A program made the position numbers and the translations under genes. 64,000 nt of DNA from a virus. Shown here piece by piece: positions 9,171-42,973 of this stretch (position 1 is its first letter; every line of letters begins with the position of its first letter). The notes beneath the pieces were generated by a model that worked only from the letters and a program-made list of their open reading frames with translations, was not told the DNA's origin and ran no database searches. Location of the stretch: positions 163,584 to 227,583 of the IMG/VR virus record IMGVR_UViG_3300042359_000853. One strand, 5' to 3'.

Positions 9171-9520
9171 TGGTGGAGGTGCTGGGATTCGAACCCAGGT
9201 TTCTACATTTACCTAAATAATCAATCATTCACAAGCTTAGAACTCTTTTCTAAGAGAACCAACTATCGGATTTTATCGAAGAACCTTCCGAAAAAACTTT
9301 TGAGGCTATTTATAGAGTTACCTCATTCTCGGAAACGTCTAGGCTACGGCCAATCTGTTTGCCTTTAGGATGTTGTTGCGTAGGGCGAATACTAAGTCTT
9401 CAACGCTTCCTACTTCATTCGTGTTGCCACTTAAAGTTTTCATACAACTTATGAATCGGTGAGTATGATCCGATGCTTGCTTGATTACCCGAATAAATGA
9501 GTCAAAAGCCATTCACCCCC
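9171..9520 (-). ncRNA. ssrA: Transfer-messenger RNA (tmRNA)
   Basis: 350 nt. The minus-strand 5' end GGGGGUG pairs with CACCUCC before an encoded ACCA end. The third pair is G-U, the alanine identity element. A T-arm CUGGGUUCGAAUCCCAG precedes the acceptor strand. Inside is a short open frame ending ...NNILKANRLAVA then UAG at 9341-9339, preceded at 9395-9390 by UUAGUA, close to the E. coli UUAGUC resume determinant. The tag is therefore about 15 residues starting near 9386 or 9389, with a degron-like hydrophobic end. tmRNA with SmpB frees stalled ribosomes and tags the product for proteolysis. No smpB gene is seen here, so host SmpB is presumably used. Confidence 0.93.
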
Positions 9521-13861: not shown

Positions 13862-14431
13862 ATGAAATATAAAGTAAGTGAATATGCTAAATTGAAAAAC
13901 GTTACCTACCGAACCGTTTGGAACTGGATAAAATCAAATAAGATAGACTATCAAACTACAAACACCGGTGGTCTGGTTATAGTTGAAGAAGATCCCAATT
14001 CAAATAAAGAGGTAGCAGTTTATGCTCGTGTTTCTTCATCAGAGAATAAAGATAATCTAGAAAGACAGAAAAATAGATTATTGGACTATTGTGCTTCTAG
14101 AGGATATAAAGTTTCTAGTATAGTAACAGAGATTGGATCTGGATTGAACGATAAAAGACCAAAATTAGAAAAAATTCTAACAAATAGATCTATAAGTATA
14201 ATTGTAGTTGAACATCGGGATAGATTATCAAGATTTGGATTTAATTATATAGAAAAACTATTAAATTCAAATGATAGAAGGATAGAGGTAATAAATGAGC
14301 CTCTTAATGAAAAAGAAGATTTAATACAAGACTTTGTATCTATAATTACTAGTTTTACCGCTAGATTGTATGGACAAAGAAGAAGTAAAAGAAGAACCGA
14401 ATTTCTTATAAAAAATCTACAAAGTGAATGA
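13862..14431 (+). CDS. tnpA: IS607-type serine recombinase TnpA
   Basis: 189 aa. An N-terminal MerR-like helix-turn-helix (YKVSEYAKLKNVTYRTVWNWIK, residues 3-24) is followed by a serine-recombinase catalytic domain with VAVYARVSSS (51-60), LERQ, and VVEHRDRLSRFG. A C-terminal basic RRSKRR segment closes it. It catalyses excision and integration of the element through a serine-linked intermediate. Length is normal and all motifs are intact, so the gene looks active. Confidence 0.93.
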   Translation: MKYKVSEYAKLKNVTYRTVWNWIKSNKIDYQTTNTGGLVIVEEDPNSNKEVAVYARVSSSENKDNLERQKNRLLDYCASRGYKVSSIVTEIGSGLNDKRPKLEKILTNRSISIIVVEHRDRLSRFGFNYIEKLLNSNDRRIEVINEPLNEKEDLIQDFVSIITSFTARLYGQRRSKRRTEFLIKNLQSE

Positions 14432-22351: not shown

Positions 22352-22858
22352 ATGTTAAACCAAAAACCTACTAACACACAGAAATACCATCAAGGATTGT
22401 ATATTCCACAGAATCGTGATAAACTCATTAAAGCTAACAACGAAGGTGGCGTCTATTATAGAAGTGGTCTTGAGAAAAAAATGATGATCTATCTAGATCT
22501 TAATGATAAAATTTCAAGGTGGTGCTCAGAATATATTAAAATACCTTATGAGAAAACCGAATGGAGTTCTGTAAGAAAAGATTTTGAGACAACCCAACAT
22601 ACTTATTATCCTGATTTTTACTATGAACTTTATAAATCAGACGGTAGTCTTTCTAAAGTTGTAGCAGAGGTTAAACCACGCTCAGAAACAATTGAGCCAG
22701 TAATCAAGGAAAACATGACCTCGAAACAGATAAGAAATCTCGAATACAGCTTAAAAACATATAATAAAAACCTACAAAAGTGGAAGTATATGATAGAATA
22801 TTGTCAGAGAAAAGGGTTCGAGTTCATTATTATCACCGAAGAACATTTAGGAAATTGA
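22352..22858 (+). CDS. 4: Head completion nuclease, T4 gp4-like
   Basis: 168 aa, close to T4 gp4 (150). Shared features are QKYHQGLYIPQNRDKLI, the YRSGLEKKMMIYLD helix, RWCSEYIKIPY, YYPDFYYEL and VAEVKPRSET. The PDF...EVKP pair is the acidic/Lys nuclease signature of the PD-(D/E)XK type. Gp4 acts after DNA packaging, trimming or closing the head before tail joining. It is divergent from the preceding gene, and its end overlaps the endonuclease gene by 12 nt. Confidence 0.85.
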   Translation: MLNQKPTNTQKYHQGLYIPQNRDKLIKANNEGGVYYRSGLEKKMMIYLDLNDKISRWCSEYIKIPYEKTEWSSVRKDFETTQHTYYPDFYYELYKSDGSLSKVVAEVKPRSETIEPVIKENMTSKQIRNLEYSLKTYNKNLQKWKYMIEYCQRKGFEFIIITEEHLGN

Positions 22859-24364
22859 GGGTCTTTTCCAGATCCATTTATCTTGACCACATCCCCAAAT
22901 TCTATAATAATTTTGTGAATGCATGATTTGAACTTCAGTAAGTGTTGAATCATGGCCTAGACTAACTAATTTTCTTTTATTGTAACCAAACCGATGTTTT
23001 CTCAAACCATCGACCACCCACCAGTAGTTCAATCCACTATTCTTATCAAAAATGAATCCGAGTCTAGAATATACTTCACCAGAATATAGGGAAAGATCTG
23101 CGTAGGTTTTGATCTCTTCAATATTTGTGTTATTTCTGATAAAATATTCGAACAATCTAGATGCCGAACCAGTGACCTGATAATCAATACCGTTACAAAA
23201 TCTTAGAAGTTCATATTCTTTTTTTCCATTGATCCAACGAAAGCCAAAAGTCATTAAGCTTACTAATCTATCTTCATAAAAAAGACCCAACGCTGTTGAA
23301 TAGTTGGAATAACCTTGTATATGATTATCATTTAAAAACTTAGAAACTATTTCTCTTTGAGTTACCCCTTTAATTTGGCATTTTCTAGCAAATATTCTAT
23401 TTTTAGATTTTTTACATCTATTTAATAAAATAGATTTAAGAACTTCTTTTCTATTTTTCCAGTCATCCTCCCAGATATGTATAAGTTGAACGCCTCTTTC
23501 TTTACATAAGTTTGTTTTCGTGAGATGATAGTTTTTATCTTTTTTAAATTCACTATGCCAATAAAGTCTGTTGAACTCAATAGCGAGATTGTGATCTGGT
23601 ATATAAATATCAAGAAGTAGAGGTGAAATAAGATCTCTTTCACTAATTTTATGGTTGATTTCTTTTTCGTTTAGAAAAGAAGAAATTTCATCTTCAAATT
23701 TACTTCTATTGTATGATTTTATATTATCTCTTGAATGTTTTGTGTTCAAGTATGTTTCAACTCCGTATTTTATGAGGCAAGTTTGTTTTATTTTTTCTTT
23801 GACCTGGTCGAGTTCTAGCTGGTGATTGACGCCCCATCTTTCTAAGTAATATTTTTTTGTTTTCAATTTAAATTCTTCAGTCTTAAAGTAATGATCTGTT
23901 CCCCATTTTTCAAGTGCCGTTTTCTTGTATTTTTCTTGTATTTCTGGGTTTTGAAAACTAGATTTATGACCCCATCTCTCTAGGTTAGTTTCTTCCTGTC
24001 TTTTTTTGATGGTATCTGACTTAGAAACGTTATCCACACCCCACTTTTCTATCGAGGTATTCATTCTCTTCTCTTTTGTAGATTGATCTGTGGCTGAACA
24101 TTTTGCTGAACAAAAGTCCCTATATCCATCTCTCCAGTTACGGTGAAAAGAGGTTTTACTCCCACACTTACAAGTATAATACTTCGGTTGGTTCGATACC
24201 CAATGCCAAATTTTCTGGATAAAGGGTAAGTCTTCAATATTTTTACAAAAACTTACGATCTCTTTGTATAGATCAGAGAAATTATTTCTGAGGAAATTTT
24301 CTCGTAATCTAACAGAGTGACCTTGTGTGACTTCATTTATCTTATTTAATCTTAGTTCATCCAT
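22847..24364 (-). CDS. Free-standing homing endonuclease (Vsr-like PD-(D/E)XK, EDxHD type)
   Basis: 505 aa. Residues about 60-95 form a zinc finger (CKCGS, FCSAKCS). Then come about five tandem repeats with LERWG/LEKWG and GV-x-x-x-x-x-S elements (about 95-215), likely DNA-contact units. The nuclease core has LLDIYIPD, LAIEFNRLYWHS and LIHIWEDDW. The C-terminal part (KCQIKGV..., NDNHIQGY, LMTFGF, ELLRFCN, SRLFEYFI) is shared with the endonuclease at 28.4 kb. It sits between gp4 and the major capsid gene and is free-standing, not in an intron I can see. Confidence 0.8.
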   Translation of the reverse strand: MDELRLNKINEVTQGHSVRLRENFLRNNFSDLYKEIVSFCKNIEDLPFIQKIWHWVSNQPKYYTCKCGSKTSFHRNWRDGYRDFCSAKCSATDQSTKEKRMNTSIEKWGVDNVSKSDTIKKRQEETNLERWGHKSSFQNPEIQEKYKKTALEKWGTDHYFKTEEFKLKTKKYYLERWGVNHQLELDQVKEKIKQTCLIKYGVETYLNTKHSRDNIKSYNRSKFEDEISSFLNEKEINHKISERDLISPLLLDIYIPDHNLAIEFNRLYWHSEFKKDKNYHLTKTNLCKERGVQLIHIWEDDWKNRKEVLKSILLNRCKKSKNRIFARKCQIKGVTQREIVSKFLNDNHIQGYSNYSTALGLFYEDRLVSLMTFGFRWINGKKEYELLRFCNGIDYQVTGSASRLFEYFIRNNTNIEEIKTYADLSLYSGEVYSRLGFIFDKNSGLNYWWVVDGLRKHRFGYNKRKLVSLGHDSTLTEVQIMHSQNYYRIWGCGQDKWIWKRPSIS

Positions 24365-28396: not shown

Positions 28397-30103
28397 CTAC
28401 TTATTCAAGATCCATTTTCTGTTACCACAATTCCAAACTCTTGAGTATCCAAGTTCTTGTGTTATTTGCTCTTCTGTTTTGTTTGGATCAGCTCCTTTTT
28501 TTACAAGTAAGTGTTTTCTATAGTTGAAACGATGTTTTCTAATACCATTAACAACATACCAATATCCGGGTTGTGATTGTCCTGAATAGTCAAAACCCAA
28601 TGTTTCGTATAGTTCTCCCTGAGAAATCATATTATCTGAGTAGGTTTGTATCTGTATCCAAGAATAGTTGTTTTTAAAGTGTTTTAGTAATTTTGAGGCA
28701 CTTCCTGGACAACTAACATAATTTTTGTTACAAAATCTAGTTAGTTCCCATATACCTTCACCACCTTTTCTAGAAATAGGTAATCTTATTTTGGAAAAAC
28801 ACATAAGTGATATTAGTTCGCCTTCATAATACAATCCTAATCTTACAGAAGATTTACAATCTCCTTGTAAATGATTATCTTCTAAGAATTTTTTTGATTC
28901 TAGATAGAGAACTTCTCTTATCTGACATTTTCTAGCCCAAATACGAGTAGTTGGTCTTTTCAACTTGTTTAAAATGAAAGATTTCACGATATCTTGTTTG
29001 GTCAAATAATCATCTTCCCATATAGTATAAAGTTTTATTCCTAGTTTTTCACACACTTTCATTTTTTCTAGATGATAATCTTTGGACTTGAATCTAGATG
29101 AGTGCCAAAAAACTCCATTAAATTCAAATGCAATTTTAAGATCTGGTAGATAAAAATCAAGCTCTTTGGGATATATTACTGATTTATCATTCATAAGAAC
29201 TTCGCCATCAAAATTTTCCTGAAATATTTTTAACAATTCTTCTTGTTTTAGTGAGATAGTCTCACCTATAGGATGGCATATAGTGCATATAGGTGTTGAA
29301 TTTTTTACTCTTGTATAGAACTGATAGGTTAAAATATTGAAATTCTTAAAACACTTATTACAACCAAAATGTAGCGAAGTAGTATCTGTATCTTTATCAA
29401 ATCCAAGAAAAGTATAGTCTGATGGATTTATTTTTTCTTCAATTCTATCTCTATAGTTTTTGTAAAACTCGAAGATTGTTTTTTTATGAACTTCTGGATT
29501 AGACCAGGGGTGTTCTGTACCCCATCTTTCTATAGACGTTTTTTTATAGGATTCTTTCCAGATCTGGATGTTTTCTTTGAAACTTTCAACTCTTTTATCT
29601 AATATATCTCTATTCTTTGATGGATTATCAACTCCCCAATTTTTGATAAGTGTTTCTTTTGATTTATTTTTAACCACATCACTAGACATAGGTGAATTAC
29701 CGCCCCATTTGGTTTGATTAGTTTGTATTATCTTGTTCCGAATGGTCGGGGATTCACTTGGTGTTTTAGTTCCCCATTTTTCAAGTGAATTATTTATTTT
29801 TTTATTTTTTACATTAGGATCAGAAGAAATACATTTTGTAGAACAATATGAAATATATCCTAGAGTTGAATTTTTATATTTTGTAAAATTCTTACAATCA
29901 TCTCTTTTACATTTTGGTTGAGTAGTAATTCCGTGATATGATAAGTAAACCTTTTCTTTGAACGGTAAGTCATTCAATCCATTTTCTTTGCAAAAATTTA
30001 AGATAGCTAAATAATGATCCGGATAGTGATATTTGACATAAGATTCTTTTGACATCTTACCTGAACTATCATTTTTTAATAAGTTGCCTAAATCTTCTAA
30101 CAT
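28397..30103 (-). CDS. Free-standing homing endonuclease, second full copy
   Basis: 568 aa. Architecture matches the 22.8 kb protein: zinc finger (CKRDDCKNF, YCSTKC), four to five tandem LEKWG/IERWG repeats, nuclease core ELDFYLPD, IAFEFNGVFWHS and YTIWEDDY, and C-terminal CQIREV, EDNHLQGD, ELTRFCN, SASKLLKHF. It has an extra inserted segment with CNKC and CTIC pairs before the core. It lies between gp21 and the sheath gene, with its own box and terminator. Sequence divergence from the first copy is large, so they are separate invasions or an old duplication. Confidence 0.8.
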   Translation of the reverse strand: MLEDLGNLLKNDSSGKMSKESYVKYHYPDHYLAILNFCKENGLNDLPFKEKVYLSYHGITTQPKCKRDDCKNFTKYKNSTLGYISYCSTKCISSDPNVKNKKINNSLEKWGTKTPSESPTIRNKIIQTNQTKWGGNSPMSSDVVKNKSKETLIKNWGVDNPSKNRDILDKRVESFKENIQIWKESYKKTSIERWGTEHPWSNPEVHKKTIFEFYKNYRDRIEEKINPSDYTFLGFDKDTDTTSLHFGCNKCFKNFNILTYQFYTRVKNSTPICTICHPIGETISLKQEELLKIFQENFDGEVLMNDKSVIYPKELDFYLPDLKIAFEFNGVFWHSSRFKSKDYHLEKMKVCEKLGIKLYTIWEDDYLTKQDIVKSFILNKLKRPTTRIWARKCQIREVLYLESKKFLEDNHLQGDCKSSVRLGLYYEGELISLMCFSKIRLPISRKGGEGIWELTRFCNKNYVSCPGSASKLLKHFKNNYSWIQIQTYSDNMISQGELYETLGFDYSGQSQPGYWYVVNGIRKHRFNYRKHLLVKKGADPNKTEEQITQELGYSRVWNCGNRKWILNK

Positions 30104-30193: not shown

Positions 30194-33100
30194 TTATGCT
30201 GTGATAAATCCACCACTTTGTATTGCCCCGGTTCTGAGAATTGTTACGTTGTTTACTATAACACCCATCGCCTTTATAGGTTCTACATAAGTATCCAATA
30301 CACCAATCTGATTATCAATAATATCAGGTGTGTTGTTTTCTTCATCACATTTGTTAAAGTAGTTATACAAACCAGCTCTGTTGACATAGGTTTCGCAGAT
30401 TACATCAGCTCTGAGTTTAATTTCAGCTCTAATTTCTGGAGTATTAAATTTCCATTGGAAATCAAGTAACATATCAGCTAGTTCTCTCTCAAGTTCAATA
30501 AGAACTTCTCTAACGTGAATATAAGATAGAGCAGATACAAACTGAGTTTGTGCTGTATTTTCTGTTTCAATTACGAATCCTCTGTTTCTCTTGAATACAA
30601 TAGGGTTCATTTTAGCTCCGTTCAAGTTTTCAATATCTGTTAGTGAAAAGTCTATTTCTAGATTATTGATGCCAAGAACTCTACCGTTTGTAACACCTGC
30701 AACAACTGTCCAAGGAGTGATTGTTGAGTTTGTTGTAACAATTTTTCTCAAATAAGATCCTGCTACATACATAGCTGGTGGAATATCAATTATTCTACCA
30801 TTATCATCAATTGTAACGTAAGGTGCAAAATATCCAACAGCTGATACACCTTTACCCTGTCCAAATGAATATAGGAAAGCAGCTGCTGTGTCTGGGTCTC
30901 CACCCTGAGCTATAAAGCTTGTCTGAAGAACACCTTCGCTATCTACGAAGCTTGGTGATACAGAAGTTCTGAAACTTCTCATCGATGGCATATTAATGAT
31001 ACCGAACGCGTCAAGTCTTTCTCCACAAATATCAACTAATTGTTGTTTTGAATTTTCGATAAGACCAAGACCAAATGAGTCAACTACATATCTGAAGTCA
31101 AGAGCTTCTTTATTTGTAAGAGCTCTAAATAGTGGAGTCCCTTTAGCTACAAGATTCAAGATTTGGTTTTGACGAGTTTCTGTTCCATCCGGCATCGATG
31201 CTTCTCTAATTTGGAATCCTTCGAATGCAAGGCCCTTATAAGTGGTTACATAATTTTCGATTGAACTATATCTCTTGGTAATATAATCACCGTTCACAGT
31301 TGTTTTCTTAATTGCTGAATCACAAGTAAGCTCTGTGAGTGCGGTATTTCCACTCCATCTTCTTTTTGTTAAAATTCTAGTGAGTTTTCTTGGAACTTCA
31401 CCAGTAGCCAATGAAGCAGTTGAATAATCAGCTTCAAGAAAATCTCCAATCTTAATCTCAGGATATCTAGTAGAATCCACTAAGATCTTATTTGTATTTT
31501 CAGTCCATCCTGTTGGAACTAGAATATCGACTGTTTGATCGAAGTTACCTCTCTTAGAATAGGGGAAAAAGTTTGTATTATAGTCTAAATTAGTAAGAGA
31601 TTGTGTTCCAACTAAAGTTTCATCTGTAAATTTACAGATAAGATTTTCATTAGAACTTGTATCTGAAGTATACATTTTCAGATAGTGTTTTGTATCAGCA
31701 TCCCAAATATATTTAGCAACTCCACTCTCATTCGACACAGATTTGTCTAGAACATAATATGATCCACTAGCCGCTGTAATTTCATAAATAGATGTATTGA
31801 GTGTTGAATCTGGTAGAACAAAAGAAAATCCTACTCCAACTTCAGATGGAACACTACCACCTGAAAATAATATCAAATCAAGATCTGAATCTAAAAACTG
31901 ATAACTAATCGTTCCTGATAGAACATTAGGGTGAAAATAATCACCAGTATTGATAAATCCGTCGTAGTAGTTTCTAAAGAACGTTGACCACTCACCAACT
32001 GAACCCATATCTGTTGTCTCGGCTACTTCGGTCTTTGTTTCAAAACCATTTATACCTAATATCAACTCATTATCTACTCTATATAGAACAAGAACACCAG
32101 ACTGCATCATTGAGGTTACTGCCTCTGGTAATACGAGTTGGAAAGATTTGTTTTGTGTTTGTGTATTGACTACATTTTGAACTTCAGTATTTTGTAAACT
32201 TAGTTTGTCAAAATCTGTATTCAATAAAATAGAACCTTTATACTTATCGGTCGATTGTAAGAAACTTACAAGAGAATTGAAAGTTTTAATTCTTCTATAG
32301 TTCTCGTAATCAGATGTTGCGATTGTTCCAGTTGTTGATGGGAATAATACATTAAGTGTTTTAAGGTCTGAACCAGTCGCCGTGATATAGTAGTCTGAAC
32401 TCGAACCATGTGAAAGCTCTCTGTAACCACTATGACCTACCGTAACATTTGAATATGTTACGCTACTAAATGAACCAGACACAATATCATAAGTAGTATA
32501 TCCTAGAACAATATCCGTAGCAGCTACTGTTGGTTTAGAAGAACCTCTTAAGGTCTTGAATTCACCACTTGAATTCAAGTAGAATACTTGTGAATAAGTT
32601 CCGTTGGATAGTGTCCCGGCACTTACTGTGTATGTGAAATTATCCGTTAGTGATATAGTTGAAGATCCTATAACTACAAATGAATCAACACCAACTTTAT
32701 ATTCGAAGTTGAAACTTGTGTCACCCATCAAACTGAAAGACCATGTATATCCACTAATTGTTCCTGCCACTAAATCATAGATGTATCCATCTGAGTAGAA
32801 AGCAGTTCTTTCTTCTCTTGTTGGTGCTACACGAAAATCTGCTGAGAAAGTTCCAGCTAGACCGATAACATTACCAGGAGAATCCAAAAACTTTTCAGAA
32901 TATGAAAGTTTTTCAATAAGTGTTTCTTTGTAAGAAAGAAATTCTACTGAAGTAGCTGAGCTTCCTACTAAATTAGCACCGATTAAATCAACAAGTCCAT
33001 TTGGATAATCTGTCTCGAATAGATCGTTGTCAAAAGTACAAAATAGACCCGATCTATCGGTATCGTTATTTATAATAGTTTCAATAAAGATATTTCTACC

Positions 33101-33913
33101 ATTTGCATCCCTAAAGTATGGAACAAGTGATAGACCTTCATAATAGGCTAAAAGATTGATATTTCTATCGTTTGCGAAATTTCTAAGTTCACTCTTTTTG
33201 ATACCTTCTGTTGTAAAATACTGTGACCATCTCGGATCAGAAGTTAATTCAACATAATTAGTCCAATCACCACCAATTACAACAACATCAACCATATAAT
33301 CGGATGCGTAATCGTGCATATTTAAATATCTTGGCATATTTTCTACATTACCATACCATTCGATCATTGTTCTGTCAAAACCTGTTAGGGAAGACTTCAC
33401 AACAAAAACTGTTATTGTTCTATCTGAAAAGTTTGTAAATGAGAGAATTTGTTTAGTGTAGTCACCTTGATTTTGTTTTGTATAGAGGCCAAAAGATTGT
33501 TCATCTCTCTTCCAAAAACCAGTAGTATCAAAAAATCTCCTGTAGGGAGCAGTTCTCTTGACCAAATTGGTATTATCCGTTGAGGTAGAAAGACTTCTAT
33601 ATCGTAGTAAATCTTCTGTATCTGAAGTCGATAAAAGATTAACCGCTGTTACTGGTGTTTGTTCAAGTAACTTGGTGATAGTTCTGTGAAAAAAAGATCC
33701 CTTTCTTTCTAAGTTTCTATCGATAGGACCAAAAATCCTTTCTAGATCAGAGGTGTTCTGTATTAGAACAGCCGTATTTACTGGACCTTTTCTAGAAAAT
33801 CCCACAACTAAAGTACTGAAAGTATCGATAATTGTTGGTGACTCGACTATTGACCTATCAATTTCTTCTAAAAAGACACCGGGTCTTTTATATTTTCCAA
33901 TTTGAATTGCCAT
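30194..33913 (-). CDS. 18: Tail sheath protein, T4 gp18-like, greatly enlarged
   Basis: 1239 aa against 659 in T4. It starts KYKRPGVFLEEIDRS, the standard sheath N-terminus. The C-terminal 330 residues carry the conserved sheath core: SFGLGLIENSKQQLVDICGERLDAFG, a KGVSAVGYFAPYV strand, PWTVVAGVTNGRVLG, LSYIHVREVLIELERELADML and a final beta unit. The middle (about 350-880) is an insertion rich in Ser, Thr, Tyr and Gly, probably several beta domains exposed on the outside of the tail. It is a single-gene unit with its own box and terminator. Confidence 0.9.
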   Translation of the reverse strand: MAIQIGKYKRPGVFLEEIDRSIVESPTIIDTFSTLVVGFSRKGPVNTAVLIQNTSDLERIFGPIDRNLERKGSFFHRTITKLLEQTPVTAVNLLSTSDTEDLLRYRSLSTSTDNTNLVKRTAPYRRFFDTTGFWKRDEQSFGLYTKQNQGDYTKQILSFTNFSDRTITVFVVKSSLTGFDRTMIEWYGNVENMPRYLNMHDYASDYMVDVVVIGGDWTNYVELTSDPRWSQYFTTEGIKKSELRNFANDRNINLLAYYEGLSLVPYFRDANGRNIFIETIINNDTDRSGLFCTFDNDLFETDYPNGLVDLIGANLVGSSATSVEFLSYKETLIEKLSYSEKFLDSPGNVIGLAGTFSADFRVAPTREERTAFYSDGYIYDLVAGTISGYTWSFSLMGDTSFNFEYKVGVDSFVVIGSSTISLTDNFTYTVSAGTLSNGTYSQVFYLNSSGEFKTLRGSSKPTVAATDIVLGYTTYDIVSGSFSSVTYSNVTVGHSGYRELSHGSSSDYYITATGSDLKTLNVLFPSTTGTIATSDYENYRRIKTFNSLVSFLQSTDKYKGSILLNTDFDKLSLQNTEVQNVVNTQTQNKSFQLVLPEAVTSMMQSGVLVLYRVDNELILGINGFETKTEVAETTDMGSVGEWSTFFRNYYDGFINTGDYFHPNVLSGTISYQFLDSDLDLILFSGGSVPSEVGVGFSFVLPDSTLNTSIYEITAASGSYYVLDKSVSNESGVAKYIWDADTKHYLKMYTSDTSSNENLICKFTDETLVGTQSLTNLDYNTNFFPYSKRGNFDQTVDILVPTGWTENTNKILVDSTRYPEIKIGDFLEADYSTASLATGEVPRKLTRILTKRRWSGNTALTELTCDSAIKKTTVNGDYITKRYSSIENYVTTYKGLAFEGFQIREASMPDGTETRQNQILNLVAKGTPLFRALTNKEALDFRYVVDSFGLGLIENSKQQLVDICGERLDAFGIINMPSMRSFRTSVSPSFVDSEGVLQTSFIAQGGDPDTAAAFLYSFGQGKGVSAVGYFAPYVTIDDNGRIIDIPPAMYVAGSYLRKIVTTNSTITPWTVVAGVTNGRVLGINNLEIDFSLTDIENLNGAKMNPIVFKRNRGFVIETENTAQTQFVSALSYIHVREVLIELERELADMLLDFQWKFNTPEIRAEIKLRADVICETYVNRAGLYNYFNKCDEENNTPDIIDNQIGVLDTYVEPIKAMGVIVNNVTILRTGAIQSGGFITA

Positions 33914-33950: not shown

Positions 33951-33972
33951 AAAAGTGATTTTTTACACTTTT
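33951..33972 (-). terminator. Weak terminator of the endolysin gene
   Basis: AAAAGTG/CACTTTT stem of 7 bp with an 8-nt T-rich loop, overlapping the end of the endolysin stop codon region. Confidence 0.45.
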
Positions 33973-34826
33973 TAGGATAGTAGAGCGAAATACTCTTTAA
34001 AATGTTTCAAACGATCCGCAAGACCGATTGTTCCACCATTTACTCTTTTCGTTACCGCAGTTACTGTCGCTTCATCACTACCTTTATCACAAATAGCCCA
34101 GAGTTTGTTAGAGTCAAAGAAAAAAGCTGCTGATGCTAGAGGATATTTACTAGCTACAAGATCAGGATTGGCAACTGTATCTTCACCTATAAACTTAGCA
34201 AAATTAGTATAGTTCGATTTACCGGTGAGTTGGATATAACCACGACCTCTAAACTTATAACCTTCTTTTGTAGATTCGTCACCATTACCCATACGACCAC
34301 CGTATACTTTAGATGCTATTTTTTCTGGATTTTTAGCGTAAGAATCAGCAGTGGTGCCAGGGAAATATTTTGGAAATATCTTTTTAAGACCATCAGCTGA
34401 GTAATTGAGATTTTCTTGGATGTGCTTGAATCCACCAGATTCATGACCACACTGTGCTAGAAAATGAGCTAAACGAAGTGGTGTAGTAATATTGAATTTC
34501 TTAGCAGTGTCAGGTATTTGAGCTATTACGGCATCAGGAATATGACCTTTTAGTTTTTCAAGTTTGAACGTAGAATCTGTTGGAAATACGACATCTTCTT
34601 TGATTGGTTTTGCTGCGGCCGGTGCTGTAGGTGCAGTAGTTGCTGCTGGAAACATTTTCGCCCAAGTTCCATCACCAACAATACCATCTGCTGTAAGTCC
34701 GTTAGCTGCTTGCCACTCTTTTACTTTCTTTTCAGTTCCAGGACCGAATACTCCATCAGCAGCCAATCCTAATTTTTGTTGAAGTTTTTTTACTTCTTCA
34801 CCTTTTGAATTTAATTTAATGACCAT
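33972..34826 (-). CDS. Endolysin: peptidoglycan-binding domain plus GH19-type hydrolase
   Basis: 284 aa. Residues 4-58 are a PG_binding_1 repeat (KKLQQKLGLAADGVFGPGTEKKVKEWQ...GIVGDGTW). An Ala/Thr/Pro linker (60-75) leads to a GH19 chitinase-like lysozyme domain: FLAQCGHESGGF with the likely catalytic E129, NYSADGLKKIFPKYF, then FRGRGYIQLTGKSNY. It should cleave glycan strands of the host wall. There is no signal peptide, so it needs a holin; a two-membrane-segment candidate is at 42.6-43.0 kb. Confidence 0.88.
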   Translation of the reverse strand: MVIKLNSKGEEVKKLQQKLGLAADGVFGPGTEKKVKEWQAANGLTADGIVGDGTWAKMFPAATTAPTAPAAAKPIKEDVVFPTDSTFKLEKLKGHIPDAVIAQIPDTAKKFNITTPLRLAHFLAQCGHESGGFKHIQENLNYSADGLKKIFPKYFPGTTADSYAKNPEKIASKVYGGRMGNGDESTKEGYKFRGRGYIQLTGKSNYTNFAKFIGEDTVANPDLVASKYPLASAAFFFDSNKLWAICDKGSDEATVTAVTKRVNGGTIGLADRLKHFKEYFALLS

Positions 34827-34872: not shown

Positions 34873-35274
34873 TTATTTTTTCATGGCGTTTTCAAGTGAC
34901 TGACGAAGAGCTGAAGAAAACTCAGTTCTCTCGAAAGGAAGTTTTTCATCTTGAAGTTGAAGTAAGGTTGAGGATACAGAAGTTTTGTTTGATCCTTCAC
35001 CGATATACTCTTTGCCGTCGATAATAATTTTTGTTTTAACAATCGTTTTCTTTTGCTTGAACTCGAAAGGTCCGATACGAATACCTTTTGTTGGTGCTTC
35101 GATTGAAAGTATTTCTACGTTAATAGCTCTGCCGCTATCACATAAGGTATATCTATCGTTAGCAAGTTCCGTAACGATTTGTTTTGCTCCGTAGGTTAGT
35201 TTTGTATCTTGGACACCGTTCATGTGAGCGAGTGTTATAACACTCGCTATAAAGTAACAAATAATTGAATCCAT
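34873..35274 (-). CDS. Small exported hypothetical protein
   Basis: 133 aa. The first 20 residues (MDSIICYFIASVITLAHMNG) look like a short signal peptide or membrane anchor. The rest is a mixed domain with LCDSGRAINVEILSIEAPT and IDGKEYIGEGSNKTSV strands. It is the last gene of the leftward exported-protein cluster before the endolysin. No family recognised. Confidence 0.6.
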   Translation of the reverse strand: MDSIICYFIASVITLAHMNGVQDTKLTYGAKQIVTELANDRYTLCDSGRAINVEILSIEAPTKGIRIGPFEFKQKKTIVKTKIIIDGKEYIGEGSNKTSVSSTLLQLQDEKLPFERTEFSSALRQSLENAMKK

Positions 35275-35278: not shown

Positions 35279-35338
35279 AATTTCTAGATTTTATCTTGAA
35301 ATTTTTAATTTCAAGTATAGTTATATATCTAGAAATTA
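35279..35338. repeat. Nested inverted repeats between two exported-protein genes
   Basis: The outer arms AATTTCTAGAT (35279-35289) and ATCTAGAAATT (35327-35337) are perfect over 11 bp. Inside them a second perfect 9-bp pair, CTTGAAATT and AATTTCAAG (35295-35303 and 35307-35315), has a 3-nt loop. A TATATAT run lies in the 3' spacer. It may be an mRNA end structure, a regulated promoter or an operator. Confidence 0.7.
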
Positions 35339-36505
35339 ATCTTGAATTTTAGAAGCAGTTGTTGTAGTTCTGTGTTTACCTTTTGAAACTATCCATATTA
35401 GTGAAGTATTCTCAAAGGTTCTAGTATGACTCAGAGGTCTTGTCAGGTAGTAATTTGGTAAAGTAGAGTTTTGTTCTATATCGAGTTTTTCGGCGTTGGA
35501 AAACACTAGATTTTGATTTAATGTTGAATTATTCCAAAATATATTCCAAGCAGATTTAATATCAAAATAATTTGTTGTAGAGTCTGAGGTTATATCACAA
35601 GTGTAAAAATCCCAACTTCTCATCTCTGATGGAAAAGTTTTCATAAAGAGTAAATAATTCAGTTCTGATTCTATTATTGTGTTAGAGTATTGTGAACTAT
35701 TTATTGTAGCTCTGAACGTATAGTTTTGTGGATTAGAAAATGAAGAATTACCCTGCGTATTTGTAAGAATAGTTCCTTGTGGTATCCAAGTTGAACTCTG
35801 AACGAAAGGCGTAAAAAGGACGGAGGAGTTAGAGGTTCCGCTCCAATTTGAACCATTCCTTCCTGGTGTGGTGATTATTTGAGAGTTATCACTATTTGAA
35901 ATACCCTGTAATGAAGATAGAGAAGCGCAACCAGGGTGCGAGAGTAGATTTATTCTTACAGTGTTGGTAGTTTCTGATAATACTATTTGAAAATCAGTAA
36001 AGAGAGTAGTAGTTGTTCTACAATTATAATATCCAATGTGATAACTTACTATAAATCTTCTATTTGGTTGTGATCCGGTAGTTTGGTATCTAACAAAATA
36101 TCCGGATATCGGAAAGAGATCCATAGCGTTTGCGTGTATTCCGTTTCTTACTGTATTATTTGGAGAACCACCAACGATATCACCACCCGTATTGGTAAAT
36201 GAAATCCATCCGTTAGAGCAGATATTTACAGTTGTAAAATTAGTTCCCCAGTAATTGAAAGTAAAACCAATTGGTAGATTTGATATAGTCTGGTCATCAC
36301 CGAGAGTAAGTGAAGTTCCTGATGTTGATTCATAAGCATATGGAACAGATCCTTGTGTGTATCCAGTCTGACCTGGAACAAAATGTTCAACCGTTACTGG
36401 AATTCCCTGTGGTATTCTACCATCAATAGTAGAAATAGTAATAACTTGGCCAAATACAACACTTGATAAAAAGAGAAAATACGTAACAATTCTAAATATT
36501 TTCAT
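35336..36505 (-). CDS. Exported beta-rich protein with dockerin-like C-terminal module
   Basis: 389 aa from the ATG at 36505 (MKIFRIVTYF); an ATG 6 codons earlier lies on the promoter side and is less likely. A signal peptide ends VVFG before Gln. Residues about 50-200 are a beta domain with YAYESTSGTSL, LPIGFTFNYWG, VNICSNGWISF, the type seen in Bacteroidota cell-surface proteins. The C-terminal 100 residues (DFYTCDITSDSTTNYFDIKSAW...) match the layout of a module shared with the proteins at 36.9 and 40.7 kb. It probably ends up on the host surface or in the medium. Confidence 0.7.
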   Translation of the reverse strand: MKIFRIVTYFLFLSSVVFGQVITISTIDGRIPQGIPVTVEHFVPGQTGYTQGSVPYAYESTSGTSLTLGDDQTISNLPIGFTFNYWGTNFTTVNICSNGWISFTNTGGDIVGGSPNNTVRNGIHANAMDLFPISGYFVRYQTTGSQPNRRFIVSYHIGYYNCRTTTTLFTDFQIVLSETTNTVRINLLSHPGCASLSSLQGISNSDNSQIITTPGRNGSNWSGTSNSSVLFTPFVQSSTWIPQGTILTNTQGNSSFSNPQNYTFRATINSSQYSNTIIESELNYLLFMKTFPSEMRSWDFYTCDITSDSTTNYFDIKSAWNIFWNNSTLNQNLVFSNAEKLDIEQNSTLPNYYLTRPLSHTRTFENTSLIWIVSKGKHRTTTTASKIQD

Positions 36506-36510
36506 TTTAA

Positions 36511-36518
36511 TATATATA
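36511..36518. promoter_or_regulatory. Palindromic TATATATA box between divergent genes
   Basis: It is 5 nt from the minus ATG at 36505 and 25 nt from the plus ATG at 36544. The leftward transcript would be leaderless. Confidence 0.5.
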
Positions 36519-36543
36519 AACAAAAAAATAAAAGTCCAAAAAA

Positions 36544-36969
36544 ATGAAACTTATAAAAAAATTTGAAGAGTTTTCACCAGGTGAAAGTTGGGATAATCTT
36601 TCTAAAAAAAGGGGCAGAAAATTAGATCATTTAGTAGGTCAAACACTTAATTTTAATATCATAACTTATCGCACTGAGGATTTCACCAAAGACGAATTAG
36701 AATATAAAAGAAAAACTAACTATGTCGGCACTATAAAACAAGTTCTAGATTGGGATATTTACGAAGAGCCAAAACTTGTTATTGAGTTACCGGAAAGAAC
36801 ATACAAAATAGGATATAACAAAGCAAAAGATATCTTCTACATAAGTAGATACTATCTAGCTAATCAAATTTTAGGAAAACGAGATGTTGATAAAAATATT
36901 TTAGAAGAGTTTAAACAATTTTTCTATAGTCAACTTTTCGATCTTGACAAACAATACAGAGATCAATAA
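36544..36969 (+). CDS. Hypothetical protein with aromatic start motif
   Basis: 141 aa, starting MKLIKKFEEFSPGES, a form of the recurring targeting-like motif. The rest is alpha/beta with a central YVGTIKQVLDWDIYEEPKLVIEL strand pair that may be an SH3-like barrel. It is the only rightward gene inside the leftward exported-protein region, and overlaps the stop of the PA14 gene by 7 nt. Function unknown. Confidence 0.6.
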   Translation: MKLIKKFEEFSPGESWDNLSKKRGRKLDHLVGQTLNFNIITYRTEDFTKDELEYKRKTNYVGTIKQVLDWDIYEEPKLVIELPERTYKIGYNKAKDIFYISRYYLANQILGKRDVDKNILEEFKQFFYSQLFDLDKQYRDQ

Positions 36970-38117
36970 ACTAAATTCTGTTGATTAGTAAAACCCGGTG
37001 TTAGTAAATAAAAATTTGACACACCACCATTTGTAGGTGTAAAAGTGTAAGTAGATTGAATACCAGGTATCGTATTTCTTAGATCTCCAGTGCTAGAAAT
37101 AAGAGTATTCCACTGAGTTTGTGTGAAAAGAAGTGTTCTTTTTTGATAGGATAATCCACCTATTCTTCTTGATGTTAAATAAATATCACCAATAGTTATA
37201 CTATTATCACCCGTAATCTCGTATTTATGGAAATGGATAGAACGTAATGGTATTCTTTGTAAAACAATACTATCAATACCTAAAAAATCAGAACTTGTTA
37301 GATTTGACAAAGTTGTCGGTATAGTCACTTCTACAGACCATTCATCACCAATTAGTCCTGTTGAAGAAAGAGAATATTGACCAGAACTATTTGTTTGTGA
37401 AGTTGATTGTAAAGTCCAAGAGCCAGGTGATGAAGTTGGAATACCAATTTCCGAAGTTTGTAGAGAGTGAGTTGATTGACCGGGTCTTCTCCAAACAACA
37501 CTAAGACCATCACCTCCGGCATACTCCTGCATTCTAGCTCGAAAGGTGTATTGAACACCACTTGTTAAGTTAATATTTCCATAAATTGGACCACTCATTC
37601 CGTGACCACCGTAATAACTAACTACAAAATTTCCACCAATAAATAGATCAGATCCATCATCTGAGTTGATACCAAAAGAATATTGACCACTTGTTTGTGG
37701 TATAAATGTTCCAGTAACCTCAACTGAATAATACTCTCCGTTATTAGGGACTGTGGCTCCTGCGTTTCTGATTGTTGTGAAAGTCGTAAAATTTAGGCAA
37801 GTAGTAGTAGGTAGTGTTCCAGTCCATCTAAGTTGTGTATTTGAAAAACTAGTATTGAATAGTCGATCGAATTCAGATGTTACTGTAGGATATGCTCCGT
37901 ATTGTGAGGTATTTCCATTTCCCAAGTGTGTTGAGTATATTTTCACGTTCATCGTATTAGATAAAACTATAGTAGGTGTTCTTCTGAACAACTTTGTGAT
38001 AATATTCTGAACAGGAGCATCGCCTTCAGTTCTAATAAAACCTGAATGTGTAAAACTTTGCCCTTGAGTCGATAGAGATAAAAAAATAAGTAGTAGTGGA
38101 AATATAACTTTTTTCAT
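36963..38117 (-). CDS. Exported PA14-domain protein with dockerin-like module
   Basis: 384 aa. A signal peptide (MKKVIFPLLLIFLSLSTQG) is followed by Gln. Residues about 125-215 are a PA14 fold: VTGTFIPQTSGQYSFGINSDDGSDLFIGG, then VQYTFRARMQEYAGGDGLSVVWRRPG. PA14 domains bind carbohydrate, often with calcium. The C-terminal part has GDNSITIGDIYLTSRRIGG, dockerin-like, then a TQTQWNTLISSTG segment similar to TQAEFDAIITNP in the 40.7 kb protein. It is the last gene of an overlapping leftward run. Confidence 0.75.
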   Translation of the reverse strand: MKKVIFPLLLIFLSLSTQGQSFTHSGFIRTEGDAPVQNIITKLFRRTPTIVLSNTMNVKIYSTHLGNGNTSQYGAYPTVTSEFDRLFNTSFSNTQLRWTGTLPTTTCLNFTTFTTIRNAGATVPNNGEYYSVEVTGTFIPQTSGQYSFGINSDDGSDLFIGGNFVVSYYGGHGMSGPIYGNINLTSGVQYTFRARMQEYAGGDGLSVVWRRPGQSTHSLQTSEIGIPTSSPGSWTLQSTSQTNSSGQYSLSSTGLIGDEWSVEVTIPTTLSNLTSSDFLGIDSIVLQRIPLRSIHFHKYEITGDNSITIGDIYLTSRRIGGLSYQKRTLLFTQTQWNTLISSTGDLRNTIPGIQSTYTFTPTNGGVSNFYLLTPGFTNQQNLVY

Positions 38118-39613
38118 AATAGAATTTTAGTTCCTGTCAGGACTTGCCAGTTTAAAAATGACTGATTTACTTGATAAACACCAGAAAAACTAATAGTCCA
38201 TTTAAACTTAGAAGTTACTTTCATATCTGTATTTATCATAGGAATGAACAATAAACCACTCTGATACCACTGACCTTGGTAATAATAGGTGTAGGGTGAA
38301 TAAACACCAAGACCTAAAAAATTAATTCCAAGAGATCTACCACCCTTGAAATTAGTAAAACCACCACCCATCAATGCCCAGTTTCTAAAATCTTGATCTG
38401 ATAATTTTCCGGTCGTGAAGGTAGTGCCTGCCATTAGTGTTACTTTATTAACTTTCTGAGCGTTGAGTAGTGAGGCTGTTAAAAACCAATCGTTGTTAAA
38501 ATTAGTCATATAAGATGTCGAAAAAATACCCATATAGTTTTTCATCTTCAAAGAACCATAACCGGACAAATTAAGAATATTCTGACCTGTCTGGTAGTTG
38601 ATATTTAGACCTTTGATGAAGGTTTGTTCAGTATTTACATGTGTTAGTGATGTGTTGAAACGGAAGTTATCATTACCTGTTTTGGTGATATCAGAATCAT
38701 TTCTAATAACAACTATATCACCTGTAGCAATGAGAGCACCAGAAGCAACACGTGATGAACCTCGAGATGATTTACCACCACCAGAAGATCCCCCACCATC
38801 ACTACCTCCACTTTCACCACCACTAGAAACTTGTTGGTTTTGTTCTCCCAGTGCGGTTACGCCACCAGATTCGGAATTATTTTCTGTAGAACTACCGTTT
38901 TGAGTTGAACCACCTCGCTGATTTGACCCACCACCCCCTCCTGTGTTGTTACCGGGAGCAGAACCATTTCCGGTTCCACCAGTTCCACTACCTGATCCAG
39001 AACCACCACCAGAACCAGATCCACCAGTATTTGAACCAGATCCACCAGTATTTGAACCAGATGCACCTGAGTTGTTTCCTGAACCATCACCAGCATTACC
39101 ACCACTGCCACCTGAGTTGTTTCCCGAACCACCACTAGATGATCCTGAAGAGTTTGAGTTAGATCCATTACCGTTTTGACCTGTAGTTCCTCCAGTTGTG
39201 CCGGATCCGATACCACCGACCGAATTTCCTATCGAGCTAGCCATCGATACAACAGAAGTAAGAGATGCTACATTGTTAGCAGATACACTTCCCAAAAAAT
39301 TACTTAAATTCGTAGATGCTCCAGAAGCTGCTTGACCTCTTTCTGAAGCACACGGATCAGTTCCTGGTGGGAGAGAACTTATAATTCCCTCTCTCCATCT
39401 CTCAAGTTCACCATTTTCCATTTCAGCCTGAGTGAAAGTTCTGAATCTTCCTAAAAAATTAATTGTTACAGAACCACCTATGGGTATTTGAATAGTTTCA
39501 TTTCTTTGTAAACAACTATTATAATAAGTATAGGTGAAACTTTGAGCTTTTACACTCAAAATTCCACCTATACAAAGTGTTAAAATAAACGATAATAAAA
39601 ATTTACCAACCAT
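38114..39613 (-). CDS. Exported outer-membrane-like protein with Gly/Ser/Asn-rich centre
   Basis: 499 aa. A signal peptide ends SVKA before Gln. An N-terminal domain (SFTYTYYNSCLQRNETIQIP, then GRFRTFTQAEMENG) is followed by a low-complexity Gly/Ser/Asn/Thr tract of about 170 residues. The last 180 residues have alternating amphipathic strands with many aromatic residues and a hydrophobic end (VLTGTKILL), as in outer-membrane barrels. It overlaps the CsgG-like gene upstream by 11 nt, which suggests the two work together at the outer membrane. Confidence 0.65.
   Translation of the reverse strand: MVGKFLLSFILTLCIGGILSVKAQSFTYTYYNSCLQRNETIQIPIGGSVTINFLGRFRTFTQAEMENGELERWREGIISSLPPGTDPCASERGQAASGASTNLSNFLGSVSANNVASLTSVVSMASSIGNSVGGIGSGTTGGTTGQNGNGSNSNSSGSSSGGSGNNSGGSGGNAGDGSGNNSGASGSNTGGSGSNTGGSGSGGGSGSGSGTGGTGNGSAPGNNTGGGGGSNQRGGSTQNGSSTENNSESGGVTALGEQNQQVSSGGESGGSDGGGSSGGGKSSRGSSRVASGALIATGDIVVIRNDSDITKTGNDNFRFNTSLTHVNTEQTFIKGLNINYQTGQNILNLSGYGSLKMKNYMGIFSTSYMTNFNNDWFLTASLLNAQKVNKVTLMAGTTFTTGKLSDQDFRNWALMGGGFTNFKGGRSLGINFLGLGVYSPYTYYYQGQWYQSGLLFIPMINTDMKVTSKFKWTISFSGVYQVNQSFLNWQVLTGTKILL
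38740..39190 (-). repeat. Low-complexity Gly/Ser/Asn-coding tract
   Basis: The region is dominated by GGT/TCA-type codons read on the minus strand and includes short tandem units (GSNTGGSG). It generates several long false open frames on both strands. Confidence 0.8.
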
Positions 39614-40295
39614 TTTGCTCCAGACGCTTTACTAGGTTCATTGTAGCAACCTCCAAAGCTTTCTGAGTAGCAATACCAACAGTTGATTGGTCAAATCCCA
39701 TTTCTGGGTTCTTAAAGTAACCTTCACCGAATTGTGTAGATTGACCTTGACCAGAAGCAACGATATATTGTGAATTTTCTACATTAACTAAACGAATCTG
39801 AATACCCATAATAGTAGTATTGGTTTTCTTCAACTTACCTTTATCGTAGTTTTCTGAGTATGATACAGAAAAATCATAAATCTCTGCGTAAACGATATAT
39901 TTTGGTAAGCGAATACCCTGCATTTTTAGTTTAGTTTTACCATCGTCAAGACCGTCGATTTTCTTTTCCCAGGCGTCGAGCATTTGATTGACTACGGCGT
40001 CTTTTTCTTCGGTAAATTCAAAACGATTGGTATATAATAGATTTTCTACAATACGGTTAGATACACCAAGACCTAGTCTTTTTTCCCTAAGTTCAGGAAA
40101 AGTTTCCCAGAGTTCTTTGTTGACATTCAATTTTGAAAGCTGCACGGTTTGTTTTTTACCCGTGTAGGTTGAGATAGATTCTAGTGTTCTATCAGTTTTT
40201 TCAAAATCCGCTTGATATTGTGTGGTCGAAATACTAGATTTACAACCAACTACCATCAAGAAACTTAGTGAGAGAATCGATAACCAGTTTTTCAT
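39603..40295 (-). CDS. CsgG-like outer-membrane lipoprotein
   Basis: 230 aa. A lipoprotein signal ends VVGC (C18). The body has LGLGVSNRIVENLLYTNRFEFTEE, PKYIVYAEIYDFSVSY, MGIQIRLVNVENSQYIVASGQGQS and a late helix, in the order of CsgG-type proteins. CsgG forms an oligomeric outer-membrane channel that secretes curli subunits in bacteria. The motif match is moderate and the barrel strands are not obvious to me. Its place between a small membrane-anchored gene and an outer-membrane-like gene fits a secretion role. Confidence 0.6.
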   Translation of the reverse strand: MKNWLSILSLSFLMVVGCKSSISTTQYQADFEKTDRTLESISTYTGKKQTVQLSKLNVNKELWETFPELREKRLGLGVSNRIVENLLYTNRFEFTEEKDAVVNQMLDAWEKKIDGLDDGKTKLKMQGIRLPKYIVYAEIYDFSVSYSENYDKGKLKKTNTTIMGIQIRLVNVENSQYIVASGQGQSTQFGEGYFKNPEMGFDQSTVGIATQKALEVATMNLVKRLEQNGW

Positions 40296-40696
40296 TCTTC
40301 TCCCTCCTGTTCTTGTTGTTTTTGTCTGAGTCTTTTCATTCTCTCGGCTGGTGTTTCTTTCTTTTCCTCAGCAGGCGCAGCGGCTGGCTGAGCCTGTGGT
40401 TGAGATGCTGGCGCTACTTCTCTGATAGTTTCTTTCTCTCTGATGACGGTCGTTCCACCACCTCCAGAGTTACTCGATGCGTTGTTTTGGTTGTTGTTTT
40501 CCAAGTTGAGATTTATAACCGGAGCAGCCGCTGGTGCTACTTGTTCAGTTTTTGTCTCTTCACTGTCGTTTCCACCACCTCCGAAGAGAGTAGTAGAAAT
40601 CCATACACCACCACCTGTTACCACAGTTGCTAGTGTGCCTACGATGGTCTTTTTCAATCCACCCCAGGTTCCGTCATTTTCGGTTTCTTCTGCCAT
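40292..40696 (-). CDS. Small membrane-anchored Pro/Ala/Gln-rich protein
   Basis: 134 aa. One membrane segment (IVGTLATVVTGGGVWIST, about 18-35) is followed by a Gly/Asn/Ala/Pro-rich linker and a charged helical C-terminus (EKKETPAERMKRLRQKQQEQ). No signal peptidase site. The 4-nt overlap with the CsgG-like gene shows translational coupling. It may bridge inner membrane and periplasm; function unknown. Confidence 0.6.
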   Translation of the reverse strand: MAEETENDGTWGGLKKTIVGTLATVVTGGGVWISTTLFGGGGNDSEETKTEQVAPAAAPVINLNLENNNQNNASSNSGGGGTTVIREKETIREVAPASQPQAQPAAAPAEEKKETPAERMKRLRQKQQEQEGEE

Positions 40697-40715: not shown

Positions 40716-42617
40716 TTATTTTTTAATAAACTTATATATTTTTTGTTTTGTTCCTGTAGTTAATCTAACAAAATATAAGCCTGGCTTAAGAGTATTTGTT
40801 TCAATTCTTCTAGTGACGGTCTGATCTTGTGCTACAAACTGTGTTTCAGCGCTGTGTAGTTTTCCAGATAGATCGTAGATTTCTGAAGTTAGATTGTCTG
40901 GTGTTGTTTGAAAATAATCTACATACATTTCATCTACAACTGGGTTTGGATACACTCTGAAACCATTTACAAGTTGATCTACAAGATCTCTAGCTCTTCT
41001 ACCGTTTACGATTGTAGCATCGGTTGGTGAAGGAATGATATTCAAATCTTGTGCTTTATCACTACCAGCTGCTTTATTGATTATTTGTATAGGTGATTCT
41101 TCCCAGTTATTGTTTAGGATTTCAAATTTGAAGTTAAACATCTGAGTTGGATTAGTGATTAGAGAAGGTGACATTTTTGATTCGTGACCACCCCATAGAA
41201 TTTCACCTGTTTTCGATGAGATAAATGAGTTCCAAGCACTTGCCTCTTGTCCTACATTAACACCTACAAATTTAAAGATTTGAGGATTGTATTTTAGACC
41301 GATTTGAGAAGCACCTACTTTGTTACCATGTGTAATAAGTGTTACATTAACATCAACGGTATTATCACCAGAAATAGTAAGTTTAGGTATTCTAAACTGA
41401 ACTGAATCTTTGATGTTTTGGTAGATCATACCTTGATCAAGAACATAAGATGTTCCAGATGTGCCGGTGTTAAGTCTTTGTATTTGAAAAGAAACGTTAT
41501 TAAGACCCGTTCCAGTAACGTCACCAAGAACATATCCAAGATAAGTCATTGAGCTCATACCATTAAGTAAGAGATCTACGAGAGTTGTTCCGATGATCGA
41601 GGTTTGAAAAGTGTTAGGGTTTGTTATTATTGCATCAAATTCTGCCTGAGTATAATATCTAACATTGTATTCGTTAGCAACAACTGGTGACCAAGTCGTT
41701 CTTCCGGTAGCTAGACGATTAAATATAAGATACGCGTCAGAAACCGAAATTGAACCACTTCTGTTTACGTCAGCTTGTTGAAACTCATAAGATTGTGCTG
41801 TGTCAGCATAAATACTCATATCAGAAAGACGATAAGCATCTGTGATATTGATAGCTGAGTTATCAGAAAGTGTATCTAAATTTGATACTAATTTCACGTC
41901 ATAGAAAGAAGTATCGTAAGGTATTTTGATACCAGCAATACCAAAGGTGTTGGTAGTGAATCTTTGACCTCTTTGATAAGCTTGTGCTGACTTTAGTTTA
42001 TAGTCAAAGGCAAATGGCATTCCACTTGCAGGAGTTCCATCAACATTTAATACCGATACTGGTATTAAAAGAGTATCCATCTGAAATCTACCACCAAGAT
42101 TGTAAGTTCCTAGTGTGTTATCAATACCACTTGTAGTTGTAGCGATATTGTTGTAGGTTGGTGTTCCAGTGACTCTAAGTGAGTCTACAGATGAAGGATT
42201 GAAACCAACATTATGTGGAAGTAAAACCTCGAATACTGCGCCATCTGGCCAATCAAAAACAGCCGAAGATCCGGTGTAGATGGCTGTTGCATTTACCCAA
42301 CCTGGTTGTGAATAATAAGAACCATATTTGGTGGATATCGATGTTGTTGTAGGCCCCCATTTAACAATTGGTTGTTTGAATGAAGCCTGTGGATAAAAAA
42401 ATCTAACCTGAAAACCAGCATAGTTTGTAAGGGTTGGATTGTGATAGTGAAGATAAACTTTAGTAGTATCTTGAAGAATACTACCAAGTGTAAACACAGT
42501 GTCGATAATAAAGTGTGGAGAAGATGAGTTTGGTGATATCAAAACTTCATTTCTACCATTTTGGCCGAACGCATTGAGCGTTATTAGGGCAAAAAGCCCT
42601 ACAAGAAACTTTTTCAT
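40716..42617 (-). CDS. Exported cohesin/dockerin protein with T9SS sorting domain
   Basis: 633 aa. A signal peptide ends NAFG before Gln. Residues about 285-305 hold a dockerin-type element (ADVNRSGSISVSDAYLIFNRL). Residues about 405-520 look like a cohesin-type beta sandwich (VNVTLITHG, SQIGLKYNPQIFKFVGV, then MFNFKFEIL). The last 80 residues are a type A T9SS/Por C-terminal sorting domain: VYPNPVVDEMYVDY, SEIYDLSGKLH, LKPGLYFVRLTTG, YKFIKK. Such a domain directs export through the Bacteroidota-only type IX system and is then removed. This is strong evidence for the host phylum and an unusual phage cargo. Confidence 0.85.
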   Translation of the reverse strand: MKKFLVGLFALITLNAFGQNGRNEVLISPNSSSPHFIIDTVFTLGSILQDTTKVYLHYHNPTLTNYAGFQVRFFYPQASFKQPIVKWGPTTTSISTKYGSYYSQPGWVNATAIYTGSSAVFDWPDGAVFEVLLPHNVGFNPSSVDSLRVTGTPTYNNIATTTSGIDNTLGTYNLGGRFQMDTLLIPVSVLNVDGTPASGMPFAFDYKLKSAQAYQRGQRFTTNTFGIAGIKIPYDTSFYDVKLVSNLDTLSDNSAINITDAYRLSDMSIYADTAQSYEFQQADVNRSGSISVSDAYLIFNRLATGRTTWSPVVANEYNVRYYTQAEFDAIITNPNTFQTSIIGTTLVDLLLNGMSSMTYLGYVLGDVTGTGLNNVSFQIQRLNTGTSGTSYVLDQGMIYQNIKDSVQFRIPKLTISGDNTVDVNVTLITHGNKVGASQIGLKYNPQIFKFVGVNVGQEASAWNSFISSKTGEILWGGHESKMSPSLITNPTQMFNFKFEILNNNWEESPIQIINKAAGSDKAQDLNIIPSPTDATIVNGRRARDLVDQLVNGFRVYPNPVVDEMYVDYFQTTPDNLTSEIYDLSGKLHSAETQFVAQDQTVTRRIETNTLKPGLYFVRLTTGTKQKIYKFIKK

Positions 42618-42622: not shown

Positions 42623-42973
42623 TTATTCTTCAGTATTTCCAGATGAGAGAGACACTCCGTCTTCTTCATCCATCTTTTGAACAAGCATTTTATCTCTGTC
42701 TTCATTTGAGAACCAGAAATCAATTACTTTGTTCAAATTACCTACGAACGCACCTAAAAGAATAAGTAAAAGTTCTTTCCAGGCTTCAGCAATTGTAGCT
42801 TTGAATAGTACGGCCATTACTATACCAAAGATTATAAAGAAAAATGTTGATAGAATAATCAAAGTGATTTTCCATCTGTTAGACTGCATAGTTTGCAGCA
42901 TGAAGTTAAACCGTTCATCCGGCTCAACTTTTTGATACTCCGTGTTGTAGAGTAGTTTTGTAAGTAGTCCCAT
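42623..42973 (-). CDS. Two-membrane-segment protein, holin candidate
   Basis: 116 aa. Two hydrophobic helices (ITLIILSTFFFIIFGIVMAV and ELLLILLGAFVGNLNKVIDFW) are separated by a short loop, with both ends charged and an acidic C-terminus. Size and topology fit a class II-like holin, which would let the 34 kb endolysin reach the wall. It lies 5 nt before the T9SS protein gene, so it may head the exported-protein operon. An alternative is a membrane helper of that cluster. Confidence 0.55.
   Translation of the reverse strand: MGLLTKLLYNTEYQKVEPDERFNFMLQTMQSNRWKITLIILSTFFFIIFGIVMAVLFKATIAEAWKELLLILLGAFVGNLNKVIDFWFSNEDRDKMLVQKMDEEDGVSLSSGNTEE

Follow-up and report, generated by a model that had tools for sequence, protein, structure and literature searches.

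Sorting-domain proteins of phages have been described before. In 2019, proteins carrying the C-terminal sorting domain (CTD) of the type IX secretion system (T9SS) were reported near BACON ORFs in gut phage cluster 2 (PMC6949934) and, in 2020, phage-encoded T9SS cargo was reported in Cryophage in Nat Commun, with hijacking of the host machine and superinfection exclusion proposed for it (PMC7468147). We analyzed a window of 64,000 nucleotides, bases 163584–227583 of a 227583-base record of an uncultured large virus, presumably one of Bacteroidota-type hosts, in which a phage gene encodes a protein with such a domain. Like this phage, Cryophage encodes proteins bearing a type A sorting domain, and one of these has a PA14 domain, but it is a 76-kb phage with variable cargo genes (endoglucanase, GH39, and PA14), and the available portion of the report describes no cohesin scaffold, dockerin-like adhesins, or barrel and lipoprotein partners (PMC7468147). 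Similarly, gut phage cluster 2 has sorting domains on phage proteins near head genes, but the other domains differ and a scaffold cassette is not reported in the part of the paper available (PMC6949934).

Two further systems are comparable in parts. The curli (T8SS) cassettes of pelagiphages and methylophages contain a CsgG-family protein and have been proposed to act in surface-fibre formation or lysis, and one of these phages, Melnitz, has a phage tmRNA, as does the phage studied here; those phages carry recognizable CsgF and CsgG, and some CsgA/B, whereas here the relation to CsgG is remote and the cargo is of T9SS type (PMC9599517, PMC9004378). No CsgF or CsgA/B was identified in our cassette. 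The tmRNA, at window positions 9171–9520 on the minus strand, was found with ARAGORN and Rfam RF00023 (65.3 bits), and its predicted tag peptide is unusually long. The scaffoldins of cellulosomes resemble our system in the cohesin fold, the dockerin-type calcium loops on the partners, and the placement in one gene cluster. They differ in that the present scaffold is phage-encoded, has one recognized cohesin per scaffold with predicted binding, and is accompanied by partners bearing lectin or PA14 domains instead of recognized cellulases. Phage T9SS cargo is thus already known; for the conserved multi-gene scaffold cassette, we found no description in the literature searched, which lay mostly outside subscription papers.

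A phage protein with a T9SS sorting domain

The scaffold gene (40716..42617, minus strand) has an ATG start and encodes 633 amino acids, arranged as a signal peptide, an N-terminal beta-sandwich, a dockerin-like module, a cohesin, and a sorting domain. The N terminus, MKKFLVGLFALITLNAFG, reads directly as a Sec signal peptide (residues 1–18; 42564..42617, minus) and is followed by Q, the arrangement known as the Bacteroidetes Q-rule (PMC5837995). Using a crude script, we recovered a signal peptide followed by Q in 53 of 57 distinct fused members of the family and in most of the family exports. The beta-sandwich, delimited from the strands of the structure model (residues about 25–180; 42078..42545, minus), has full-length matches in phage contigs only, among the sets searched.

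The sequence-only reading had proposed a body combining a cohesin-like sandwich with a dockerin-like element, and the two parts fared differently. The cohesin (residues 408–534; 41016..41396, minus) scores 28.4 bits with PF00963, above the Pfam cut-off of 24.1, and in Foldseek comparisons the AlphaFold2 model of the scaffold (mean pLDDT 77) matches solved cohesins, the highest TM-scores being about 0.8 when normalized by target length. A profile built from 39 aligned family sequences also matched the clostridial cohesins 2vn5 and 1g1k in the PDB, at 1–3e-6, as well as the solved T9SS sorting domains 8glk and 8glj, at about 7e-6. The second element (residues about 246–372; 41502..41882, minus) stays below the threshold: Dockerin_1 (PF00404) matches residues 252–302 with 19.3 bits against a Pfam gathering cut-off of 22.9, and we therefore call the module dockerin-like only. 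It contains a calcium-loop-like DVNRSGSISVSD at residues 283–294 and, by inspection, has one canonical and one degenerate loop, the type I dockerin being defined by two calcium-binding F-hand loops.

The C-terminal 80 or so residues had been read as a type A sorting domain and a search with TIGR04183 set beforehand as the check. The search gave a significant match (5.4e-13) for residues 555–633 (40719..40955, minus), covering model positions 1–72 of 72 with 48.7 bits against the curated cut-off of 23, and PF18962 agreed with 43.5 bits (cut-off 27; 3.8e-11). The further claim that the signal is used in Bacteroidota only was too narrow, as T9SS is described for the Fibrobacteres–Chlorobi–Bacteroidetes group (PMC7468147). 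Among 83 distinct family CTDs, a P-x-P-type and a G-x-Y-type motif are each kept in 82, when defined as loose patterns. Purifying selection acts on the sorting domain, with dN/dS of about 0.12 in close pairs, although its sequence changes faster than the body of the protein. CTD proteins were found in none of eight unrelated Bacteroidota phages (0/8), and HTVC008M gave no TIGR04183 match. On the full-length score with a curated model, the conservation, and the control phages, we rejected a chance Ig match. No other ORF in the window matches the family profile of the sorting domain. With these two signals, passage through the outer membrane is the obvious inference; the export signal itself is strongly backed by the sequence.

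The scaffold cassette and its partner genes

Ten IMG/VR contigs encode relatives of the scaffold at 75–100% identity, and a more distant one, about 29% identical, is encoded by the cultured Flavobacterium phage immuto. CTD proteins were present in 49 of 50 contigs sampled among carriers of a lipoprotein-like gene and in 41 of 50 sampled among carriers of an outer-membrane-barrel gene. Of the 124 loci with enough upstream sequence, 122 have a CTD gene on the same strand as the lipoprotein-like gene and upstream of it by at most 2.5 kb, and the barrel gene is directly downstream in 151 of 158; as the loci overlap and include near-identical viruses, these counts indicate consistency, not independent events. 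Judged by gene order, the scaffold is not isolated but belongs to a conserved cassette.

Immuto, whose host is Flavobacterium sp. LMO8, carries the same cassette with the scaffold divided in two: gp14 has a signal peptide, the N-terminal domain, and the dockerin-like module, and gp15 its own signal peptide, the cohesin, and the sorting domain. The calcium loop of the split, gp14-type proteins starts with N, not D. Across loci, we counted 104 fused ORFs, 40 of the cohesin–CTD type, and 33 of the N-terminal–dockerin type, and the occurrence of both fused and split forms suggests that the halves work together.

Next to the scaffold, and conserved between it and the lipoprotein-like gene, is a small protein (40292..40696, minus) that appears to have a single membrane helix and whose tail is long, charged, and rich in Pro and Ala; it has phmmer relatives in 136 loci and is 61% identical to immuto gp16 over the first 51 residues. 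The lipoprotein-like protein (39603..40295, minus; 230 aa) has a lipobox-like VVGC, read from the sequence, and relatives in 432 viral stretches. No Pfam family matches it at E<=1, so that it does not classify as a Pfam CsgG (PF03783) protein; its family profile matches a cellular CsgG-family (PF03783) protein at 2.5e-6, and hhalign gives a probability of only 44% for the family against CsgG. We class it as a remote member of the CsgG/LpoB superfamily, any pore function being putative. The following gene (38114..39613, minus; 96 relatives) encodes an N-terminal domain, a Gly/Ser/Asn-rich linker, and a predicted outer-membrane beta-barrel at residues 293–499, for which a structure model of low confidence shows about twelve strands and Foldseek gives generic matches to outer-membrane barrels, FapF included. 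The linker differs greatly in length among the relatives. Neither the profile of the lipoprotein-like protein nor that of the barrel protein retrieved anything relevant from the PDB sequences.

Further downstream are secreted proteins, which we call adhesins, with varied N-terminal domains that are of C-type lectin or PA14 type where recognizable. Their tails are homologous to the dockerin-like module of the scaffold (hhalign E 5e-15), and a canonical dockerin-type calcium loop is present in 51 of 69 distinct adhesins. In this phage, the PA14-domain protein (36963..38117, minus; PF07691, 5.4e-11) has such a tail at residues 257–384 and no sorting domain was found in it. The neighboring secreted protein (35336..36523, minus; first listed start TTG) is of a type that in several relatives is fused, as an N-terminal domain, ahead of the PA14 protein; a dockerin suspected in it by eye was dropped, as the profile of the dockerin tails gives no match at E<=10. 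A 133-aa protein (34873..35274, minus) separates the adhesin region from the endolysin in relatives. The adhesin is conserved less well among near relatives: compared with one of them (L012), it is 76% identical, against 92, 98, and 99% for the scaffold, lipoprotein-like, and endolysin genes. A diversity-generating retroelement behind the lectin variation was considered and rejected, as no reverse transcriptase (PF00078) occurs in the 12 records searched, this contig and immuto among them.

Genomic setting and alternative explanations

The 227.6-kb contig had been taken for a phage genome and its predicted genes agree: with portal, Gp23-type capsid, S77-like protease, tail sheath, terminase, and endolysin, it is by gene content a T4-like contractile-tailed phage. 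The tail sheath protein (30194–33913, minus) is very large, 1239 aa, and the sheath match is confined to its C-terminal part. Two homing-endonuclease-like genes (22847–24364 and 28397–30103, minus) flank the capsid and protease genes, and an IS605 OrfB/TnpB-like protein (PF01385) with a Cas12f1-like TNB domain is encoded at 14428–15597 on the plus strand. The cassette shares its strand with the capsid, sheath, and portal genes, from which we infer late expression. Bacteroidota promoter-like patterns were near chance in number (87 found, 85.8 expected), as were sigma-70-like sites.

Our best explanation, to which we give about even chances, is that the scaffold is the T9SS-exported part of a phage surface-display cassette and would leave the cell through the Sec and T9SS machines of the host. 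Lysis assistance, competition for T9SS, and virion decoration are, in this falling order, possible alternatives.

The cassette adjoins an endolysin with peptidoglycan-binding and GH19-like domains (33972..34826, minus), a neighboring lysis gene. On the other side, upstream of the scaffold gene, is a protein with two apparent membrane helices and weak PHROG matches (42623..42973, minus) that is holin-like by inspection only; a protein of this type lies inside the cassette in a contig from a metagenome-assembled genome (MAG), L188. In this clade, the neighborhood is as expected if the barrel, lipoprotein, and membrane proteins breached the outer membrane late in infection and the scaffold assisted in this or left with the progeny, and the CsgG/CsgF pores of Melnitz have been proposed as lysis regulators (PMC9004378). 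We consider a lysis module unlikely: replication and nucleotide genes rather than lysis genes precede the cassette in immuto, and lysis leaves the lectin and PA14 domains, the dockerin-like tails, and the sorting domain all unexplained.

The phage encodes a second CTD protein (L002:151–1725, plus; record bases about 5743–7317), with a signal peptide by inspection, a weaker sorting-domain match of 23.5 bits, and relatives on 23 viral contigs. This, and the type A sorting domain in nearly all family members, would suit a decoy in which plentiful phage cargo would occupy or coat the T9SS of the host and so block export of the host surface adhesins that serve other phages as receptors. We regard the decoy as somewhat less probable still, as it makes the conserved cohesin, dockerin-like modules, barrel, and adhesins superfluous.

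Virions are known to carry Ig-like and lectin domains, and the strand shared with capsid, sheath, and portal genes is compatible with tail or capsid decorations whose sorting domain is merely an Ig-like virion domain. This we find improbable: nearly all members have Sec signal peptides, whereas virions are assembled in the cytoplasm, and the match is to a curated sorting-domain model over its full length rather than to Ig domains in general.

Cohesin, dockerin, and CTD are families of cellular domains, and short, isolated dockerin-segment matches do occur in the 396 Bacteroidota genomes searched. In the same genomes, the N-terminal half of the scaffold is matched at full length in only one phage-like MAG contig, and the lipoprotein family is confined to that contig, save for one remote CsgG match. 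In a scan of GTDB genomes, the lipoprotein family was likewise encoded on a single contig, L188 (CAIWBA010000291.1; 254 kb), in the Bacteroidetes MAG G111, which has CTD proteins on other contigs; L188 holds the full cassette beside an endolysin and phage-like genes and is probably a phage contig binned with the MAG. With this distribution, the constant gene order in phages, and purifying selection, recent capture of a host surface gene with no phage-specific role is already disfavored and the least probable explanation of all.

A proposed surface-display cassette

Under the surface-display explanation, the scaffold would enter the periplasm via Sec, as its predicted export signal indicates, and a host with T9SS would then move it across the outer membrane, to remain there on the surface or be released. 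Outside the cell, its cohesin would bind the calcium-dependent dockerin-like tails of the companion phage proteins, the N-terminal domains of which (C-type lectin, PA14, and other beta-sandwiches) may bind glycans or surfaces. The cohesin–CTD half gp15 and the dockerin-like half gp14 of immuto are separate counterparts of the pair fused in this phage. In the weakest step, the barrel and the CsgG/LpoB-superfamily protein might export or anchor the adhesins; as no sorting domain was detected on the adhesins, their route out is a guess. The infected cell would thereby acquire a coat of lectins made by the phage, plausibly serving superinfection exclusion or adhesion between cells or of progeny.

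The most likely role of the scaffold is, after T9SS export, to keep phage proteins with dockerin tails and glycan-binding domains attached to the infected-cell surface. Of the roles proposed by the sequence-only reading (surface remodeling, superinfection exclusion, or release of an adhesive or enzyme-carrying matrix), the analysis favors the surface-display or adhesion kind and makes no choice between the purposes. More tentatively, and with rather less confidence than in the surface-display explanation, we propose that large phages of Bacteroidota form a widespread, phage-specific lineage that makes a cellulosome-like complex on the infected cell, in which a T9SS-exported cohesin scaffold displays interchangeable dockerin-tailed lectins passing through a phage-encoded outer-membrane pore.

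The cultured pair of immuto and Flavobacterium sp. LMO8 makes the cassette hypothesis testable now. Our analysis suggests that phages with the cassette refit the outside of the cells that they infect. Should this prove correct, a phage group whose relatives in viral metagenomes number in the hundreds would be using the type IX machine of the host to remake the infected-cell surface, and the modular scaffold-and-lectin design would bear on how such phages block competitors or keep their progeny near new hosts.
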